Below, in pieces: positions 35,845 to 46,533 of a stretch of DNA of 64,000 nt (position 1 is the first letter of the stretch; the number at the start of each line of letters is the position of its first letter). Where the stretch lies: positions 1-64,000 of the forward strand of contig JAJDDT010000062.1 in NCBI GenBank assembly GCA_029260165.1, given 5' to 3'. Both the position numbers and the translations under genes were made by a program. A model generated the notes under the pieces. The model was given only the letters and a program-made list of their open reading frames with translations. It ran no database searches and was not told the DNA's origin. Source of the stretch: Phycisphaerae bacterium (GTDB lineage: Bacteria; Planctomycetota; Phycisphaerae; UBA1845).

Positions 35845-38031
35845 TTATGTTTCAACGGATTGATTCATGACATCGCACCGTTCCATCTGATTGGATACCA
35901 TCGACGTTGCAATCGCAAACGTCGCACGCGTGCACGCTGTCGCCTGATCGAATGTCAACGACGGCTCGCGACCCTCGCGAATCGCCCTGACAAACTCAGC
36001 CATTTCATGCTTGTGCCCCTTGCCCGAATTTCCGGGTTTCACCTTTTGCGTCTTGCCGCCCGCCGACAACAACGCATACCGCCAATTCTCGATCACGCCT
36101 GTCTTGTGCTGCCCGAAAACCTCAATCCGCTCCTTGTCGAAAAACGGGTCACCGTTGGCCAGGTAGGCAAGACTCGCGACGGAACCGTCCGCCATCTTCA
36201 GATTAACAATACAATTATCATTTTGTCGGCCCGACACACTGCCACCAACCATATTCGCGAAAACCGCCACCGGTGGACAACCACAAATGAACTGAATCAG
36301 GTCAACCCAGTGGCACCCTTCACTAACGATCCGCCAACCACCCTCCTCGGCATCCTGATACCACGAGTCAGCCTTGATCTCCCCCGCATTTACACGACAG
36401 ACAATCTCGATCGGGCTGGATCGACTCGCAAAAAAGTCCCGAACCGCAACGCTCAAGGGACTGAACCGTCGGTTGTACCCCGGCATCGCGACGCACGACG
36501 ACGCACCCTTCGCCGCAATGACCTCGTCAAGCTGTTCCACCGTCAACGCAAGCGGTTTTTCAACGAAAACGTGTTTTCCCGCACGCAGCGCGTCAGCCGC
36601 AAACTTCGAATGCGTGTCATGCCTCGTCGCAATCACGACCGCATCAACGGAATCGTCCGAAAGAACCTCGCCCATATCCGACGCGCAATACGCAAAACCA
36701 TGACGCCGCGCAGCGCTCCTGGCCGACAACCCACCCGCAGAGCAAATCGCCTGCAACCGCACACCTTCGCACGCCTTGAGCGCGGGGATCAGCGTCCCGG
36801 TTGCGAAATTCCCCGCACCGATCATCGCAACCCCGACCGATCCCGTCTTCCCTGCCACCGAACCGTTCGCACCCGATGTCACGCTCACACGTCGGCTCAC
36901 CGCCGGTGCATCATATTCAAACAAAATACCCGTTGCGTGCCTGCCCGGTGACTCGCGCAATTGTTCGTACGCAGTCGGAGCATCGTCAACCTTGAACAGC
37001 TCCGGCGCCATCACGCTCGGCTTGACAGACCCACTCTTAATCAGTTGCAGAAACGATTCCATGTTCCGCCGCTCGGTCCAGCGAACATACCCGACCGGAT
37101 AGTCGATCCCGCGCAGCTCGTATTGCCGATCATACCGACCCGGACCGTACGACCGCGACATGACCACCTGCAACTCCTTGTGGTAGTACGTCTGCCAATC
37201 CGCTTCGACAGGCACCATGCCCACGACGACCACCTTGCCACGATCACGAAGCACCTTCCCCGACAGTTCCATCGGATCGCTGCTCTTGGTGCTCGCTGCC
37301 ACATACGCAACGTCCGGACCGAATCCGCTGGTCACCTGCGCGATGATATCCTCCAACCCCGCGTCACCACGCGCGATCGCGACATCCGCTCCGCACGTCG
37401 TAGCCATCGCAAGTTTCGACGCATCAACATCCACGCCGATCACCGTACAACCCGCCGCCTTCAATATCTGAACCGCCAACAATCCAACCAGACCCAACCC
37501 AATTACAAGCACACTGTCACCAACCGTCACGCCCGCCTGCCGCACACCGTTCATCGCAATCGCGCCAACCGTTGTAAACGCGGCATCTTTCAGGTCCACG
37601 CCATCGGGAATCGGGGCACACAGGTTCCGCGGTACAAAAACGTATTCCGCATGACAGGCAATCCCCTCACCCGCACACGCCACCGCGTCGCCGATCGCAA
37701 ACTCGTCCAACCCGCCGCCAACCTCCTCAACATACCCCGCCAGGCTGTAACCCAACGGCGTCAGCGTATCGAGCCGTTCCGTGACCTTGTTGATCGTCTC
37801 AGTCAGCCCAACCTGTTTGACGGACTGCATGACCTGTTTGACCTTGTCGGGACGCGCCTTGGCCATCTGCAGCATGCTCATCTTCGCCTGCGTGACCTTC
37901 ATCCGCTCTGTCCCGGCGCTGACGAGTGAATACGCAGACCGCACCAGCACACCACCCGACCGACAGATCGGCACGGGCACATCATCAACGGTCAACTTAC
38001 CTGTTTTGTAATTCTGGACGACCTGTTTCAA
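35845..38031 (-). CDS. Two-domain oxidoreductase: zinc-type alcohol dehydrogenase fused to Gfo/Idh/MocA
   Basis: A 728-residue fusion. Residues 1-370 resemble medium-chain dehydrogenases (SLVSAGTERMKV, TPLGYSLAGYVEEVG, VIGLGLVGLLAVQILKAAG), and residues 390-720 a Gfo/Idh/MocA dehydrogenase (VAMIGAGNFATGTLIPALK, VFVEKPLALT). This fusion is known in bacterial polysaccharide loci; substrate unknown, probably a nucleotide sugar or sugar acid. The start chosen is TTG at 38031, where the family usually begins (KQVVQNYKTG) and GGAG is seven bases upstream; an in-frame ATG at 38049 is the alternative. Either overlaps the CapK-type gene. Confidence 0.85.
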   Translation of the reverse strand: MKQVVQNYKTGKLTVDDVPVPICRSGGVLVRSAYSLVSAGTERMKVTQAKMSMLQMAKARPDKVKQVMQSVKQVGLTETINKVTERLDTLTPLGYSLAGYVEEVGGGLDEFAIGDAVACAGEGIACHAEYVFVPRNLCAPIPDGVDLKDAAFTTVGAIAMNGVRQAGVTVGDSVLVIGLGLVGLLAVQILKAAGCTVIGVDVDASKLAMATTCGADVAIARGDAGLEDIIAQVTSGFGPDVAYVAASTKSSDPMELSGKVLRDRGKVVVVGMVPVEADWQTYYHKELQVVMSRSYGPGRYDRQYELRGIDYPVGYVRWTERRNMESFLQLIKSGSVKPSVMAPELFKVDDAPTAYEQLRESPGRHATGILFEYDAPAVSRRVSVTSGANGSVAGKTGSVGVAMIGAGNFATGTLIPALKACEGVRLQAICSAGGLSARSAARRHGFAYCASDMGEVLSDDSVDAVVIATRHDTHSKFAADALRAGKHVFVEKPLALTVEQLDEVIAAKGASSCVAMPGYNRRFSPLSVAVRDFFASRSSPIEIVCRVNAGEIKADSWYQDAEEGGWRIVSEGCHWVDLIQFICGCPPVAVFANMVGGSVSGRQNDNCIVNLKMADGSVASLAYLANGDPFFDKERIEVFGQHKTGVIENWRYALLSAGGKTQKVKPGNSGKGHKHEMAEFVRAIREGREPSLTFDQATACTRATFAIATSMVSNQMERCDVMNQSVET

Positions 38032-39454
38032 GGCCTTTCTCCACGGCATCTGCCAGTTCAGTGATCACGCGCAGCTGCTTGCCACGCTTTGTCTTTTGAA
38101 GCTCATCCACAACCCTGATTTTCACGTCAATCTGCCCCTGCAATCGTCTCGTCGCACCCTCAAGAATGTGCGCCAGTTCCCCCTCCGACAACGAACGGGC
38201 AGGCAATATCCGCAGCTCAGCCCGCCCGGGTGCGGACTGAAAAAACTGATAACCAACGACGTTTTCAAACGTATCGTCATGCACGTTGAACGTCGTCAGC
38301 GAAATCGATGAACCATCCGTCGCCACCAGAACCTCACTCGAAAACCGTCCCTCGACACTCCCGCTGACAATCGGGTGACGCCGACCACACGCCTTGCAAC
38401 CATGTCCAACGTAGGTGGCGTGATCGCCGGTTCGATACCGAACAAAAGGCACGATCGTGTTGATAAATCCCGTCCCGACAATTTCACCAACCTGCCCAGG
38501 CTCGGTCACCGGATCCCCGCACTCGTCCAGCAATTCAAAATAACCGTAGGTCGGATGCACATGATAGTCGTTGGTGTGCTCGCACTCGGAAGCGAGCACC
38601 AGTTTCTCCGAATGCCCATACCACGAGTAGTATCGCACACCAAACGCCTTCTCCACAAGCGCCCGGTCCTCGGGATAGACATTCTCCGATCCGCAAAGCA
38701 CACCCCGGATGTTGGCAGGGGCACCCTCGTTGTGCACCTCAAGAAATCGCGCCAACCTCACCGCAGACGACGGATAACCGTGAAAATAGCACGGACCCAC
38801 CGTGGCGATGTGATCCAGATACCGCCGAATGTCCTCCTCGGACGTGTGAAAATTGCTGTAGTAATGGCGACGCAGGACGGCGTCGTAAAAATGCCGCAAA
38901 CCCTGACGATTCTCGTTCACAATCGCCCCGCGAAGAATGACCTGCGGCAGCTCAAGGCGGTAACCAACACGCATCCAGCCCGCGACCAGATAGGCATATT
39001 CGATCGCCGACCGCCCCGCATCAATATAGAACTGCAGCGTCTGACCACTCGACCCACCGGTCGACACCAGATCAACGCCGCCACGATCCGGCGACACCGC
39101 ACACATCTCGTTCAGATGTCCCTGCACCGTATTCTTGTCGATCGTCGGCAGCCGGCGAATGTCCTCAGGCTCCCTGAAATCATTCGGATGAAATCCAGCC
39201 GAATCAAACGTCGCATGATAATAGGACGTATTCTGATACGCGGAGATCAGCACCCGTTGCAACTGTTGAAACTGATGGTCACGAATACGGTCATCAGACC
39301 AACGATCCGACTCATGAATAAACGCAAGATTCCTGCGAAACTGACCGCCCAGCAGGTACTGCGACGGAATCGCACCCAGCACCGAACCGACCCCCCGCTT
39401 CAACGAGTCGGGCATTTTCTCCCACAGGTTTTTTCGCGAAAATGCCGTTTTCAT
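37997..39454 (-). CDS. CapK-type adenylating enzyme, second copy
   Basis: A 485-residue member of the PaaK/CapK family. Visible motifs are VSTGGSSGQTLQFYIDAGRS, YSWYGHSEKLVLASECE and IVPFVRYRTGDHATYVG, and a Cys cluster (GHGCKACGRRHP). It should activate an acid with ATP. Its stop overlaps the start of the oxidoreductase gene by 35 bases. The ATG at 39454 is used; an open frame extends 36 codons upstream and overlaps the CapA-like gene, but has no clear start except the far ATG at 39562. Confidence 0.83.
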   Translation of the reverse strand: MKTAFSRKNLWEKMPDSLKRGVGSVLGAIPSQYLLGGQFRRNLAFIHESDRWSDDRIRDHQFQQLQRVLISAYQNTSYYHATFDSAGFHPNDFREPEDIRRLPTIDKNTVQGHLNEMCAVSPDRGGVDLVSTGGSSGQTLQFYIDAGRSAIEYAYLVAGWMRVGYRLELPQVILRGAIVNENRQGLRHFYDAVLRRHYYSNFHTSEEDIRRYLDHIATVGPCYFHGYPSSAVRLARFLEVHNEGAPANIRGVLCGSENVYPEDRALVEKAFGVRYYSWYGHSEKLVLASECEHTNDYHVHPTYGYFELLDECGDPVTEPGQVGEIVGTGFINTIVPFVRYRTGDHATYVGHGCKACGRRHPIVSGSVEGRFSSEVLVATDGSSISLTTFNVHDDTFENVVGYQFFQSAPGRAELRILPARSLSEGELAHILEGATRRLQGQIDVKIRVVDELQKTKRGKQLRVITELADAVEKGLETGRPELQNR

Positions 39455-39492
39455 CCGAATCCAATACCCCGCCAGGTCCTGTACCCCGCCAC

Positions 39493-40674
39493 CTACCTGT
39501 TTGAGAGTCTGCCCCAATAGTACTGCGCCGTGCGCCCAACCCCGACTCGCCGCACCATACAAAACGCACTGTCAATCCGCTCTTTCAAACGCGCACGCTG
39601 CGCAATTTTCGTCCGCCGACGCGCCGTCCGCTCGTCATGAAGCTCAAGCGACAGTCGCCGCAAATGCGCTCCAAAACTCGACGACGCCTCAGCGGTCATC
39701 GGCTCCGGCAACGAATTCTCACTCAACACAAACGGCTCGATGACAAGGTGCTGCAATCTCCCCTCCGACAACTCCGCCCGAACCGCGATCGTCCACGAAT
39801 TCTCCGGACGATATCTGTCCGCAGGATCAAACAAAAAATTTCCGACGCTGTGAAACACAACGCAGTCATCAAACGATTCGATACCCTGCACGACGTGCGG
39901 ATGATGCGAAATAATCAGGTCAGCCCCCGCAGCCGCAATGCGACGACACAACCGACGATCATCGGGATGCGGATAGGGACAATACTCAACACCATGGTGC
40001 AACACGACAGCCAACACATCAACACGCGACCGCGCAGACGCGACAGCCTCACAGATTTCACCCGCATCATGACGAACAATGTTGACGCGCGCGGTATCCG
40101 GCAACCGATGTGCACATCCTGAAAACGCCATGATTCCGATCGATCCATCCGCCGTCCGGCGAATGTCCGGTTGCCCGACCTCCCCGCCCACCACAACCCC
40201 CACCGCACCGATACCAAACGATTCCAAAGCCTTGATCGTGTCCGCCGCACCCTTCTCACCACGATCCAGAAAATGATTGTTCGCCACCGCTACGACACAC
40301 CGCTCCGGATGCGGAATCGCAGACAGGTTGCAACCGTCCCCCACCAGCATCACAGGCTTCGGTTCAAACATCTCCGCCGATTGCGTCAGACAACACTCCA
40401 GATTCAGACAGATCACATCGGCATCGAAAAAATCCGTCGGACACCTGGAAAAAACGCTACCAGGACCATCCTTTTCAATCCGCCGACCCGCCTCCTTCGT
40501 CAACGCAACATCACCGAGAAACAACACAGACGATCGCGACGCACTGTCAGACGCAGAATCCCCCAGACCGATCCGCCAGGGACCGGCTCCTTCGCCCAAA
40601 CCGGACACAATCACCTCATTCAACCGGCGGTTCGCATCCGCCTGCGATTTGGATGTCAACGTCGATACGATCAA
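39493..40674 (-). CDS. CapA/PgsA-type metallophosphatase-like protein
   Basis: A 393-residue protein of the CapA family (poly-gamma-glutamate capsule type). It has FLGDVALTKEAGRR, LNLECCLTQ, VVAVANNHFLDRGEKGAAD, HHGVEYCPYPHPDDRRLC, DLIISHHPHVVQGIES and FHSVGNFLFD, the metal-binding motifs of the calcineurin-like fold. Its role in polysaccharide making is unclear; CapA proteins are common in capsule loci. The start is uncertain: TTG at 40674 overlaps the upstream stop as TTGA, and the only ATG upstream (40731) would overlap that gene by 61 bases. Confidence 0.8.
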   Translation of the reverse strand: MIVSTLTSKSQADANRRLNEVIVSGLGEGAGPWRIGLGDSASDSASRSSVLFLGDVALTKEAGRRIEKDGPGSVFSRCPTDFFDADVICLNLECCLTQSAEMFEPKPVMLVGDGCNLSAIPHPERCVVAVANNHFLDRGEKGAADTIKALESFGIGAVGVVVGGEVGQPDIRRTADGSIGIMAFSGCAHRLPDTARVNIVRHDAGEICEAVASARSRVDVLAVVLHHGVEYCPYPHPDDRRLCRRIAAAGADLIISHHPHVVQGIESFDDCVVFHSVGNFLFDPADRYRPENSWTIAVRAELSEGRLQHLVIEPFVLSENSLPEPMTAEASSSFGAHLRRLSLELHDERTARRRTKIAQRARLKERIDSAFCMVRRVGVGRTAQYYWGRLSNR

Positions 40675-42274: not shown

Positions 42275-43585
42275 TCAAACATCCGGAAACGTCAACCCCC
42301 GCCAGCGCACCGTCGCAATCGTCCGCCGACCATCATGAACAACATCACACCCAAACGCCTCACCCTCAGCCATCCTCACCACCACATCATCACAACGATC
42401 AACCGCAAACGTCAGCCCCATCGCCTCGTCAGCCGACACCCACCGCCGACCAGAAACCTCGTCATCAACACCCTCAACCGTCACGGTGACGCGATCGCCC
42501 CCACGCCTCGCCGAATACGTCAGACAATCCCGAACCGACAGATACCGCAACAAACGGTGCGTCGTCGTCACGAAAATCGAGCCAGCCTCCCGCATCGCCG
42601 CCAACCGACGAAAACCCGCCACCGCCTCCACACCAAACGGACAACGCGGATCGCGCACCTTCCCAAGATGCGAATACAAAACGCAAACACCCCCTGACCG
42701 CAACAGATGATCCAGCATCCGCTGCGTCAACACATACCCAACCCCATCCCCCGTATCACCCTTCCCCGACCCACGCCAATACGGATTCGACCGCAAAAAC
42801 TCCCATACAGGCTGACCATCCCGCAAACGGCTCGACCGCAACACCCGGTTGTCCGCATACATCTCCCACCGCGGATGCCCCTTTCGCCCCAACCGAATCT
42901 TCACCGCCTCCTTCACCATCGTCCGCCCCGAACCAACCGGATGACGCCAATCAAACACATTCATCAACGACCGCGCACCGATCGGCACATCCTGACCCGT
43001 CACCCCCGTCGTCCGCCCCCGCCAGACAAACCGAACACCGTAATCAGTCGTCAAATCCGCGTGATAGGCCTCCGCCTCCGCCACATCCCCCGATCCAACC
43101 ATAATATCAGGCCCGAAATTCGTCACCGCCTTGGAATGATCCACCCACACCTTCAACCGCAAATCATGCCTGACCAGTTCATCGATGCACCGCTTCGCAT
43201 CATCACGCGACCTCGCAAAATCACCATACGAGTGCAACACATCAATATGCCCACTGCGTATCAACGCCCGCGCCATCTCCCGACCAGCCTCATCCGTCCC
43301 GAAATACGAATACTGATCGTCGGGCATCAGGAAATAAATCGAATTCCCCACCTCCAGATCAACCCCCGGACCCATCGCCGTCGTCTGCGACGTATTCAGA
43401 AACCGCGCGATCTCCGCATACACCCCCGCATCACGCGTCTTGTCCAGATCACTGCAAATCGCCATCGCAGACTTGAACGGATACGGATACGCCAGCAACT
43501 CCACCGCCACGTCCGTACCAACCGCACCGTCCACGTCAGCCTCGCGATTCATCGCACCCTGTTCCACCACAACCGACCCGCTCAC
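42275..43585 (-). CDS. Polysaccharide deacetylase-like protein
   Basis: A 436-residue protein that resembles the NodB deacetylase superfamily: FKSAMAICSDLDKTRD matches the position of the first metal Asp pair, and HIDVLHSYGDF holds a possible metal His. The fit is loose: the canonical TFDDG and H-x3-H are not intact. The C-terminal 110 residues form a separate beta-rich domain. It could deacetylate or otherwise modify the sugar chain, or be an inactive relative. It overlaps the formyltransferase gene by four bases. Confidence 0.55.
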   Translation of the reverse strand: MSGSVVVEQGAMNREADVDGAVGTDVAVELLAYPYPFKSAMAICSDLDKTRDAGVYAEIARFLNTSQTTAMGPGVDLEVGNSIYFLMPDDQYSYFGTDEAGREMARALIRSGHIDVLHSYGDFARSRDDAKRCIDELVRHDLRLKVWVDHSKAVTNFGPDIMVGSGDVAEAEAYHADLTTDYGVRFVWRGRTTGVTGQDVPIGARSLMNVFDWRHPVGSGRTMVKEAVKIRLGRKGHPRWEMYADNRVLRSSRLRDGQPVWEFLRSNPYWRGSGKGDTGDGVGYVLTQRMLDHLLRSGGVCVLYSHLGKVRDPRCPFGVEAVAGFRRLAAMREAGSIFVTTTHRLLRYLSVRDCLTYSARRGGDRVTVTVEGVDDEVSGRRWVSADEAMGLTFAVDRCDDVVVRMAEGEAFGCDVVHDGRRTIATVRWRGLTFPDV

Positions 43586-44397
43586 GAATGAACACCCCGC
43601 GCCCGTTCATTCGCATCACGACTTCCACCCATCCACACCTTGATGCGCCGACCCAACACCCGCAGATGCATCGTCAACCACTGTCGCAGATTCGGCGTGG
43701 TATACACCTTTCCCATGTCATCGTCGCTCAGATACACGCCCGCCTGCGAATCATCCGACAACAACGTCATCGCCTCAATCGCCAACCGATCGCTCACCGC
43801 ATACGCCCGTTCATACACCGTCGACCACGAATCCCCCAGCCCGATCGGCACCGACATCTCACGGATGATCGCACCCGCGTCCAACCGCTCGTTCAACCGC
43901 TGCACCGTCACGCCCATCTCCGACAGACCCCGATACACCTCCCAAAAACCAACAGGCTGCCCACGAACCTCGCGAAGGTCACCATGGTGATACGACAAAA
44001 CACCCAACGGCGACATCGACAACCAGGGCTCCCGAATGATCCCGAACGCCGATCGAAAAACAACGTCAGGCCTGCATTCCCGCGCAAACGATATTGCCTC
44101 CTCAGAACGAAAATCGTCACACGCGAGAAACCTCGCCGAACTGCCCGCGAAAAACGTAGCCGCATCAACCGAATCATCGCGTGATCGCCCGAACAGCTTG
44201 CCCAGGACCTGAACGAACACGAACCCACCACGTCCCCGCTTCAGCTCTCGCTTGATCTTCTTCCAACCCGATGCCCTGGGACGTGTGTCAATCAATCCAC
44301 CAACGATTTCAATGCCATCACTTGATAACAGATGCCCGAACACCTTCTGACGAAACCCGCTCAAGCTCGGATTGACAAGCAGAAACACACGCATCAT
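43582..44397 (-). CDS. Formyltransferase-like protein (Fmt/ArnA-type fold)
   Basis: A 271-residue protein with the formyl-transferase pattern: RPDVVFRSAFGIIREPWLSM followed by GVLSYHHGDLREVRGQPVGFW, matching the H-G-x-L-P-x-Y-R-G core, with Leu-Pro replaced. A terminal part has ERLDAGAIIREMSVPI, as in sugar and Met-tRNA formyltransferases. It likely uses 10-formyl-tetrahydrofolate to formylate an amino sugar (inference); no aminotransferase for such a sugar is in the window. A FolD-like gene lies two genes upstream. Four-base overlaps link it to its neighbours on both sides. Confidence 0.75.
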   Translation of the reverse strand: MMRVFLLVNPSLSGFRQKVFGHLLSSDGIEIVGGLIDTRPRASGWKKIKRELKRGRGGFVFVQVLGKLFGRSRDDSVDAATFFAGSSARFLACDDFRSEEAISFARECRPDVVFRSAFGIIREPWLSMSPLGVLSYHHGDLREVRGQPVGFWEVYRGLSEMGVTVQRLNERLDAGAIIREMSVPIGLGDSWSTVYERAYAVSDRLAIEAMTLLSDDSQAGVYLSDDDMGKVYTTPNLRQWLTMHLRVLGRRIKVWMGGSRDANERARGVHS

Positions 44398-45647
44398 TCG
44401 TCACCTGCCGTCGTCGTCGACAACTTCCGCATCTTCACCAGATTCCCCAGTTTCCCCAGTTTCAACCGCGCCGGCCGACCCGTCTTCCGTGCATGGGTCG
44501 CCTCATAATTGTCCCCGATCCGATCCGCCCACGTCCGCAGCGAATACCCCTGCTCCACCGTCACCCGCGCCAAACCGCTCGCCCGGGTCAAGCCATCCCG
44601 ATCCGCCAACATCCGACAGACCACCTTCGTCATCGCCGCATCGTCATCCAACCCCACCACCGTCCCACCGCTCGATTCGTTCAAAATAATCGCATTGTCC
44701 GCCACATCCGTCGCCACCACAGGCACCCCCGACGCCATCGACTCCAGCACAACATTAGGCGTTCCCTCCCGACGACTCGTCAGCAACGTCATATCACACG
44801 CCCGATACAACAACTCAACATCATCCCGATTCGTCAAAATCACCACCCGATCGCGAATATTCAATTCGTCCAGCAACCCATTCAGCGACGCCTGATATTC
44901 CCCAGACGTCCGATCACCCAACGGTGTATGACTGACACACAAAAACGTCGCATCAGGCACCCGTTTCAACACCTGCCTCGCCACCCGGAAATACATCGCG
45001 TGATTCTTCTGCGCTTTGAAACTCGCAAACATACCGACAACCGGACCACCTCCGGCCATCCCGATCCGTTCCCGAGCAGCCACTTTGTCTCCCGGAACAA
45101 ACCGCTCCGTATCCACACCGTTGTGCACGACCACCGCGCGATCATCCGCAAACCCCAAACGACCGCACGCATGCCGCTTTCCCGCATTCGAATTCGCAAT
45201 CACAAGGTCCACCATCGACCGCGTCGCACGCTGAAACCGATCCTTGATCGCCATCACCGGATAATCCGAATTACGCTCCGACGCGATCACCGCCGACACC
45301 CCCGTTAACCAACCCGTCAACCGACCGATCACCTCCGCATCAAACAAAAAACAATGCAGAACATCAATCGCCTCACGACGCAACGCACGACCCACCTGCC
45401 AAAACGGAATCGGATCAAACCGCGCCCGACGTTTCGCCATCAACACCCGCGTGTCGCTCGGATTCAGATCAAACAGCGTCCGCGTCCCATCCAGACAGCA
45501 CAAAATCGGCTCGAACCGCTCCCGATCCAATCGCCGAGCCAACTCCACAACCTGACGCTCCGCACCCCCATAGTGCAGACTGCTCGTCAGCAACATCACC
45601 CGCAGCCGTCGTCCCTCAAAAATCGCATCCTGTTCGCTGCATGACAT
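44394..45647 (-). CDS. Glycosyltransferase, GT4-like
   Basis: A 417-residue GT-B enzyme. LTSSLHYGGAERQVVELARR is the N-terminal acceptor loop, VVHNGVDTERFVPGD the linker, FASFKAQKNHAMYFRVARQ and LTSRREGTPNVVLESMASGVP the donor site with the E-x7-E pattern. It should add one residue to the repeat unit. The ATG at 45647 lies eight bases beyond the folD stop; an alternative ATG at 45707 would overlap folD by 53 bases. A four-base overlap links it to the formyltransferase gene. Confidence 0.85.
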   Translation of the reverse strand: MSCSEQDAIFEGRRLRVMLLTSSLHYGGAERQVVELARRLDRERFEPILCCLDGTRTLFDLNPSDTRVLMAKRRARFDPIPFWQVGRALRREAIDVLHCFLFDAEVIGRLTGWLTGVSAVIASERNSDYPVMAIKDRFQRATRSMVDLVIANSNAGKRHACGRLGFADDRAVVVHNGVDTERFVPGDKVAARERIGMAGGGPVVGMFASFKAQKNHAMYFRVARQVLKRVPDATFLCVSHTPLGDRTSGEYQASLNGLLDELNIRDRVVILTNRDDVELLYRACDMTLLTSRREGTPNVVLESMASGVPVVATDVADNAIILNESSGGTVVGLDDDAAMTKVVCRMLADRDGLTRASGLARVTVEQGYSLRTWADRIGDNYEATHARKTGRPARLKLGKLGNLVKMRKLSTTTAGDE

Positions 45648-45654
45648 GCCGGAC

Positions 45655-46533
45655 TCACACCTCGATCCGCCGCGGACCGCGCTGCCGACACGCCGCATCA
45701 ACCGCACTCCGCAACAACATCGCCACAGTCACAGGACCAACCCCACCAGGCACCGGCGTGATCGCGCCAGCCACCCCCACCACCCCCTCAAAATCAACGT
45801 CCCCAACGATTTTCGTCTCGCCACCCTCCTCAACCCGATTGATCCCCACATCAATCACCACCGCCCCACGTTTCACATGCTCCGCCTTGATCAACCCCGA
45901 AACCCCGACAGCCACCACCAACAAATCCGCTTGCGAAGTATGCGCCGCCAAGTCCCGCGTCGCCTCATGACACGCCGTTACCGTCGCCATCTCATGCTGC
46001 AAAAACAACGCAATGGGGCGACCCGCGATCGGACCAATCCCCACGACACAAGCGTTCATCCCCTTCGGATCAACCCCCGCCTCGGTCAATATCTCCATCA
46101 CCGCAAGGGCAGTACAAGGTGCCATAATCGGCGAATCATAAAACAACAACCCGATATTCGACGGATTCACCCCCTCAACGTCCTTGTACGGATCAATCCG
46201 ATACTGCACCGCCGGCGTATCAATCCCCTCAGGCAACGGCAGATTCAACAGAATCCCCGTCACCGCACCATCACGATTCAACCGCCCGATCAAACCCTCC
46301 ACATCCTCCTGCGTCGCATCGGTCCCCAACGCGTGCAACCGATACTCAATCCCCACCTCCTGACACCGTGTCTCCTGCGACCGCGCATAAATCGCCCCCG
46401 CCGACGGATCACCCACCATCACCGCATCCAGACGCACGCTCCCACCAGCCAACCGAACCTCATCAACCAACGCCGCCGTCTGCGTCTTCAACCGCTTCGC
46501 AACCGCCCGACCATCAATCAGTTTCGCCGACAA
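45655..46533 (-). CDS. folD: FolD-like methylene-tetrahydrofolate dehydrogenase/cyclohydrolase with substituted catalytic residues
   Basis: A 292-residue FolD homologue: VVGIGPIAGRP (NADP site), PGGVGPVTVAMLL, IMAPCTALAVMEIL. In known enzymes the reactive centre is Lys56, Gln98/100 and an Asp in KDVDG. Here the Lys position of the Y-x3-K motif is Gln (IYARSQETRC), the Gln of LVQLPL is Asn (LLNLPLP), and the Asp of KDVDG is Glu (PYKDVEG). Lys-to-Gln mutants of the human enzyme lose cyclohydrolase. So this protein may be a dehydrogenase only, or have another role. Its place next to a formyltransferase suggests it serves that gene, yet the substitutions argue against making 10-formyl-folate. Confidence 0.85.
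   Translation of the reverse strand: MSAKLIDGRAVAKRLKTQTAALVDEVRLAGGSVRLDAVMVGDPSAGAIYARSQETRCQEVGIEYRLHALGTDATQEDVEGLIGRLNRDGAVTGILLNLPLPEGIDTPAVQYRIDPYKDVEGVNPSNIGLLFYDSPIMAPCTALAVMEILTEAGVDPKGMNACVVGIGPIAGRPIALFLQHEMATVTACHEATRDLAAHTSQADLLVVAVGVSGLIKAEHVKRGAVVIDVGINRVEEGGETKIVGDVDFEGVVGVAGAITPVPGGVGPVTVAMLLRSAVDAACRQRGPRRIEV

Follow-up and report, generated by a model that had tools for sequence, protein, structure and literature searches.

What does a FolD homologue do when its catalytic residues have been replaced and its gene lies among polysaccharide genes? Annotation usually treats FolD as a bifunctional enzyme, and strict conservation of the catalytic residues among orthologues has been claimed (PMC3338484). 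We examined such a gene in a 64,000-nucleotide stretch of a Phycisphaerae genome (contig JAJDDT010000062.1, positions 1 to 64,000; hereafter the window). The gene (45655..46533, minus strand) encodes 292 aa from a TTG start, also the start codon in the sister genome within the genus. Its product matched PF00763 and PF02882 above their cut-offs (1e-27 and 1e-58), its closest PDB relatives were the FolD proteins of P. aeruginosa and E. coli, and its AlphaFold model (mean pLDDT 93.9) had FolD structures as top PDB matches (TM about 0.9). Both domains, the full length and the FolD fold thus place the protein in the FolD homology family. None of the 25 NCBIfam models listed was passed, and the best score (277.5 bits) fell short of the curated bifunctional-FolD equivalog cut-off of 355. 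Comparison with the copy in the sister genome gave a dN/dS of about 0.08, which indicates purifying selection and rules out degradation of the gene; the domains and the model likewise agree with the initial annotation, which had described an intact fold. Stop codons within FolD matches of relatives, considered as possible recoding, were only read-through beyond the true end.

The initial annotation had also proposed that all three classical catalytic positions were changed, and this holds in an alignment to E. coli FolD (1b0a) that needs no shifts. On the minus strand, Gln53 (46375..46377), Asn97 (46243..46245) and Glu120 (46174..46176) occupy the positions of E. coli Lys54, Gln98 and Asp121, that is, human Lys56, Gln100 and Asp125. 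The protein therefore has Tyr-x3-Gln in place of the Tyr-x3-Lys of bifunctional FolD, and Asn and Glu (the latter in KDVEG) in place of Gln98 and Asp121. Misalignment was rejected on a second look, as no shift brings Lys, Gln or Asp onto the motif positions. In characterized FolD proteins, the glutamine positions the catalytic lysine and the aspartate touches the folate (PMC3338484; PMC6443876). The E. coli K54N variant retained about 19% of dehydrogenase activity with undetectable cyclohydrolase, and Q98H retained 8% and about 1%, respectively (PMC5688156). Once the lysine is lost, cyclohydrolase activity should go and position 98 should be free to drift. The Asp-to-Glu change is conservative, since the carboxylate is retained, and may re-seat the pterin.

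We further compared 203 distinct FolD sequences, drawn from relatives, from the phylum and from named genomes, and found 60 with the canonical K/Q/D triplet (K type), 142 with Q/x/E and one with Q/T/D from Armatimonadota (together the 143-member Q type), and none combining Lys with Glu. Gln53 was present in 143/143 clade members (Lys in 60/60 K-type sequences), Glu120 in 142/143, and the two together in 142; substitutions this consistent exceed chance. Position 98 behaved as expected from loss of the lysine: it was Gln in 60/60 K-type sequences, whereas the Q type carried Q (53), N (43), H (32), S (7), L (4) or T (3). The claim that all three positions are replaced thus stands for the window protein and only in part for its clade, where Gln98 is kept in 53 members and the change at Asp121 is conservative. 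Further clade marks included Gln110, Tyr132 and, at codons 142-144 (46102..46110, minus strand), Ala-x-Ala in place of the Pro-x-Gly of the K-type PCTPxG motif; Ala142 occurred in 135/143 Q-type sequences (Pro in 60/60 K-type) and Ala144 in 138/143 (Gly in 58/60 K-type). A tree of 124 rows, built with the three trait columns removed, by a quick search and with SH-aLRT support only, separated 75 Q-type from 49 K-type rows on a single branch with support 100, and the K/Q change occurs once on this gene tree. The Q-E type was found in the Phycisphaerae genomes read so far and in many other Planctomycetota families, as well as in four further phyla (Chloroflexota, Omnitrophota, Elusimicrobiota and Armatimonadota). 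That the protein is degenerate or catalytically dead, as the alteration of all three catalytic positions might suggest, is highly improbable given the low dN/dS, the clade-wide conservation of the altered residues and the gene's standing as the only FolD in a genome rated complete.

Several individual sequences within the Q type deserve mention. The Q/T/D sequence of Armatimonadota (L152:5903-6757) has Gln at position 54 and Asp at 121 (YARSQ, KDADG), is the sole intermediate among the 203, and branches on the tree as the sister of two Q-E sequences. The conserved Tyr50 is also lost, to Phe or His, in some Q-type proteins with the motifs HQRGQ, FQRGQ, FLRHQ and FIKNQ (L245:913-1773, L255:473-1339, L261:967-1824 and L151:6001-6870). 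Two Q-type copies were found on different contigs in each of G211 (L268:922-1770 and L269:963-1811) and G362 (L262:823-1701 and L270:963-1841), reflecting either recent duplication or mixed bins.

The cofactor site also differs between the two types. The position contacting the NADP 2'-phosphate, which we take to be human Arg173, is Ile166 in the window protein (46036..46038, minus strand), with Arg in 53/60 K-type and 12/143 Q-type sequences. The position of human Ser197, whose role is described in PMC9173628, is Glu190 (45964..45966, minus strand), with Ser in 53/60 and 6/143 sequences, respectively. Because Ile166 and the acidic Glu190 replace the Arg and Ser of the 2'-phosphate site, the window protein probably favours NAD.

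We then searched the genome to which the window belongs (119 contigs, completeness rating 100%) family by family. Apart from the window gene, the FolD search returned one 31-bit match, which reads as a chorismate mutase/prephenate dehydrogenase and was rejected as a second folD. The check for a second, canonical folD that had been suggested with the initial annotation thus found none, and the window gene, as the sole FolD, must serve housekeeping. The PurN, Fmt, PurU and MTHFR families, all of which use folate one-carbon units, were present, and PurN and Fmt require 10-formyl-THF. Formate-THF ligase was absent by family search, and was discarded as a bypass in this genome. The split arrangement calls for a separate FchA gene, and one FTCD_C/FchA-family gene was found (G000:C5:148962-149471; FTCD_C, 2e-32; 200 aa). 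Its closest PDB entries were 1o5h and 7vg4, the methenyl-THF cyclohydrolase structure (1.4e-10 for 7vg4). The FchA model NF045657 was its closest named model, at 59 bits against a cut-off of 275, so that the protein is too divergent for the model's name. It keeps the PxPGGG loop, Asp76, Asp139 and Asn161, and several of the columns at which it departs from other FchA proteins also vary within its own family. The initial annotation would have been overturned if this were the only folD of the genome and had normal cyclohydrolase activity; it is the only folD, but the separate FchA-family gene would make a cyclohydrolase activity of FolD dispensable.

These results suggest, with a probability of about 0.8, that the window gene encodes a housekeeping monofunctional methylene-THF dehydrogenase, probably NAD-preferring, and that the cyclohydrolase step is carried out by a separate FchA. 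With NAD as its probable cofactor in preference to NADP, FolD would oxidize 5,10-methylene-THF to 5,10-methenyl-THF but would lack the lysine-dependent hydrolysis to 10-formyl-THF; the FchA-family product would perform this hydrolysis, and the two proteins would jointly furnish 10-formyl-THF for PurN and Fmt. We infer the FchA activity, the cofactor preference and the loss of cyclohydrolase, the last from FolD residues together with co-occurrence across genomes. Thus, of the earlier proposal that the protein is intact, has lost cyclohydrolase and has kept dehydrogenase activity, the first part stands, and both the loss of the one activity and the retention of the other are probable in the light of the clade's residues, the FchA co-occurrence and the E. 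coli K54N variant.

The co-occurrence was assessed in 80 Planctomycetota genomes with a FolD type read (54 Q-type and 26 K-type). FTCD_C genes were found in 52/54 Q-type and 4/26 K-type genomes, and all four K-type matches carry an N-terminal formiminotransferase domain, which identifies them as the FTCD of histidine degradation. Standalone FchA occurred in 41/53 Q-type genomes (one unclear case left out) and 0/26 K-type genomes. Ten Q-type genomes had the FTCD fusion alone, and two (G252 and G370) lacked an FTCD_C gene and had formate-THF ligase (Fhs). In 26 genomes beyond the phylum, FTCD_C/FchA was present in 7/8 Q-type and 0/18 K-type genomes, the exception being G484, a Q-type Anaerolineae MAG (completeness not stated) that lacks both FchA and Fhs. 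Fisher tests gave P = 1e-13 within the phylum and 1e-5 in the other phyla, values that overstate the evidence because the single K/Q split on the gene tree means that the genomes are not independent; the weight of this genome-level association lies in the rule holding across phyla. The rule is directional, with the Q type going with FchA, since K-type FolD and FchA coexist elsewhere, for example in acetogens. In one Omnitrophota genome (L306, G490:C151:1848-4116) and one Armatimonadota genome (L307, G485:C384:2000-4329), the standalone FchA gene adjoins that for formate-THF ligase.

The same data bear on whether the Q-E protein might still be bifunctional, with a rebuilt site (Gln53, Glu120 and PCTAxA) that hydrolyses otherwise and an FchA-family gene that serves something else. 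The changed residues are conserved as a coherent group and are not scattered, Glu retains the carboxylate, and both G484 and the ten fusion-only genomes would suit such an enzyme; we nevertheless consider it unlikely, as Q-type FolD and FchA-family genes occur together across phyla, the residue at 98, on which placement of the lysine depends (PMC3338484), is relaxed in the clade, and the equivalent lysine is essential for E. coli cyclohydrolase (PMC5688156). The Q-E FolD is a real conserved class, and strong comparative evidence predicts that it lacks cyclohydrolase. Counting against a monofunctional FolD working with FchA are the divergence of the genome's own FchA, the fusion-only genomes, G252, G370 and G484, the single K/Q change, and the fact that methenyl-THF also hydrolyses spontaneously (PMC5688156).

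Many family members carry a second FolD, of K type, and in several it lies within about 0.1-1.2 kb of an FTCD domain. Examples with the canonical K/Q/D residues near an FTCD gene in relatives from the family and order are L065:4797-5630, L068:5447-6280, L070:5911-6747 and L092:5571-6407. Among 38 hand-tabulated genomes, 21 had both the second FolD and FTCD, 12 had neither and 5 were mixed, so gain or loss of one tends to accompany that of the other. This fits a division within the family in which the bifunctional-type FolD, where there is one, goes with histidine degradation, and the copy never missing is of Q type and is paired with FchA.

Finally, we considered the polysaccharide neighbourhood, from which a specialised folate function in making the polysaccharide had been proposed. 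The epimerase gene lies upstream of folD with a gap of about 10 bases, and folD may be co-transcribed with the polysaccharide genes here while its role is general. The gene order Ugd-epimerase-FolD-glycosyltransferase-formyltransferase was common only to the sister genome, and the window's polysaccharide neighbours were absent at the other Q-type loci examined, many of which had only 1.5 kb of flank. An M48 peptidase gene adjoins folD in two other family members. A dedicated polysaccharide enzyme would be expected to keep its neighbourhood across relatives; here the neighbours are not conserved beyond the genus, and with the gene being the sole FolD, the proposed specialisation was rejected. 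A related alternative is that the substrate is a different pterin (tetrahydromethanopterin), or that the enzyme is dedicated to supplying C1 units for formylated polysaccharide sugars. The locus itself, in which a single gene separates folD from the formyltransferase-like gene, would suit this, and some planctomycetes carry methanopterin-linked C1 genes; we regard it as very unlikely, because PurN, Fmt, PurU and MTHFR of the THF pathway have no other FolD to serve them, the neighbourhood is confined to the genus while the clade spans several phyla, and identical residues are already found in relatives lacking polysaccharide neighbours.

The formyltransferase-like gene of the locus (43582-44397) matched only the second part of Formyl_trans_N (E = 2e-10) and fell under every NCBIfam cut-off; its product may be a sugar N-formyltransferase or a related protein that uses a different donor. 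Two long products of the polysaccharide locus, from 42275-43585 (436 aa) and 37997-39562 (521 aa), gave no Pfam match at a threshold of 0.001. If the glycosyltransferase ORF (44394-45707) begins at its first GTG, it shares 53 bases (45655-45707) with the end of folD; a later start is likely.

A monofunctional FolD paired with FchA has counterparts in known systems. The window protein shares the two-domain fold, the catalytic-cleft Tyr and the PGGVGP loop with bifunctional FolD/MTHFD (E. coli 1b0a, P. aeruginosa 4a5o and human MTHFD1) at about 42-47% identity, but differs from these in the replaced catalytic and NADP 2'-phosphate residues, in PCTAxA for PCTPxG, and in having FchA separate. Clostridium perfringens, from a different lineage, reportedly has the same division of labour between a monofunctional FolD (dehydrogenase) and FchA (cyclohydrolase), as described by Aluri et al. 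in 2016, a study that PMC7219735 cites. Yeast MTD1 is a monofunctional NAD-dependent dehydrogenase without cyclohydrolase activity, and its structure (1edz) is a distant PDB homologue of the window FolD (E = 1.2e-5), eukaryotic and far more divergent. In Methylobacterium, the separate dehydrogenase MtdA works with a separate FchA, a similar split in which MtdA belongs to a different dehydrogenase family. The split mode itself is thus already known in other bacteria. In the openly accessible literature searched, we found no earlier description of a Tyr-x3-Gln FolD clade and no assay of a Q-E FolD; the sequence-defined clade appears undescribed there.

If this reading is true, checking just two residues (Tyr-x3-Gln and KDVEG) would allow annotation and models of one-carbon flux to be corrected in Phycisphaerae and several other lineages, and the predicted cofactor balance would shift from NADPH to NADH. 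With Gln53 and Glu120 tightly paired and position 98 released, the clade would also serve as a natural experiment in how a single active site supports two reactions. More speculatively, and with considerable doubt on our part, FolD may comprise two deep branches, of which the Q-E branch, monofunctional, largely NAD-dependent and tied to FchA, may match the bifunctional one in age. Were the tree rooted between these branches, the second activity may be a gain of the K branch rather than a loss in the Q branch.
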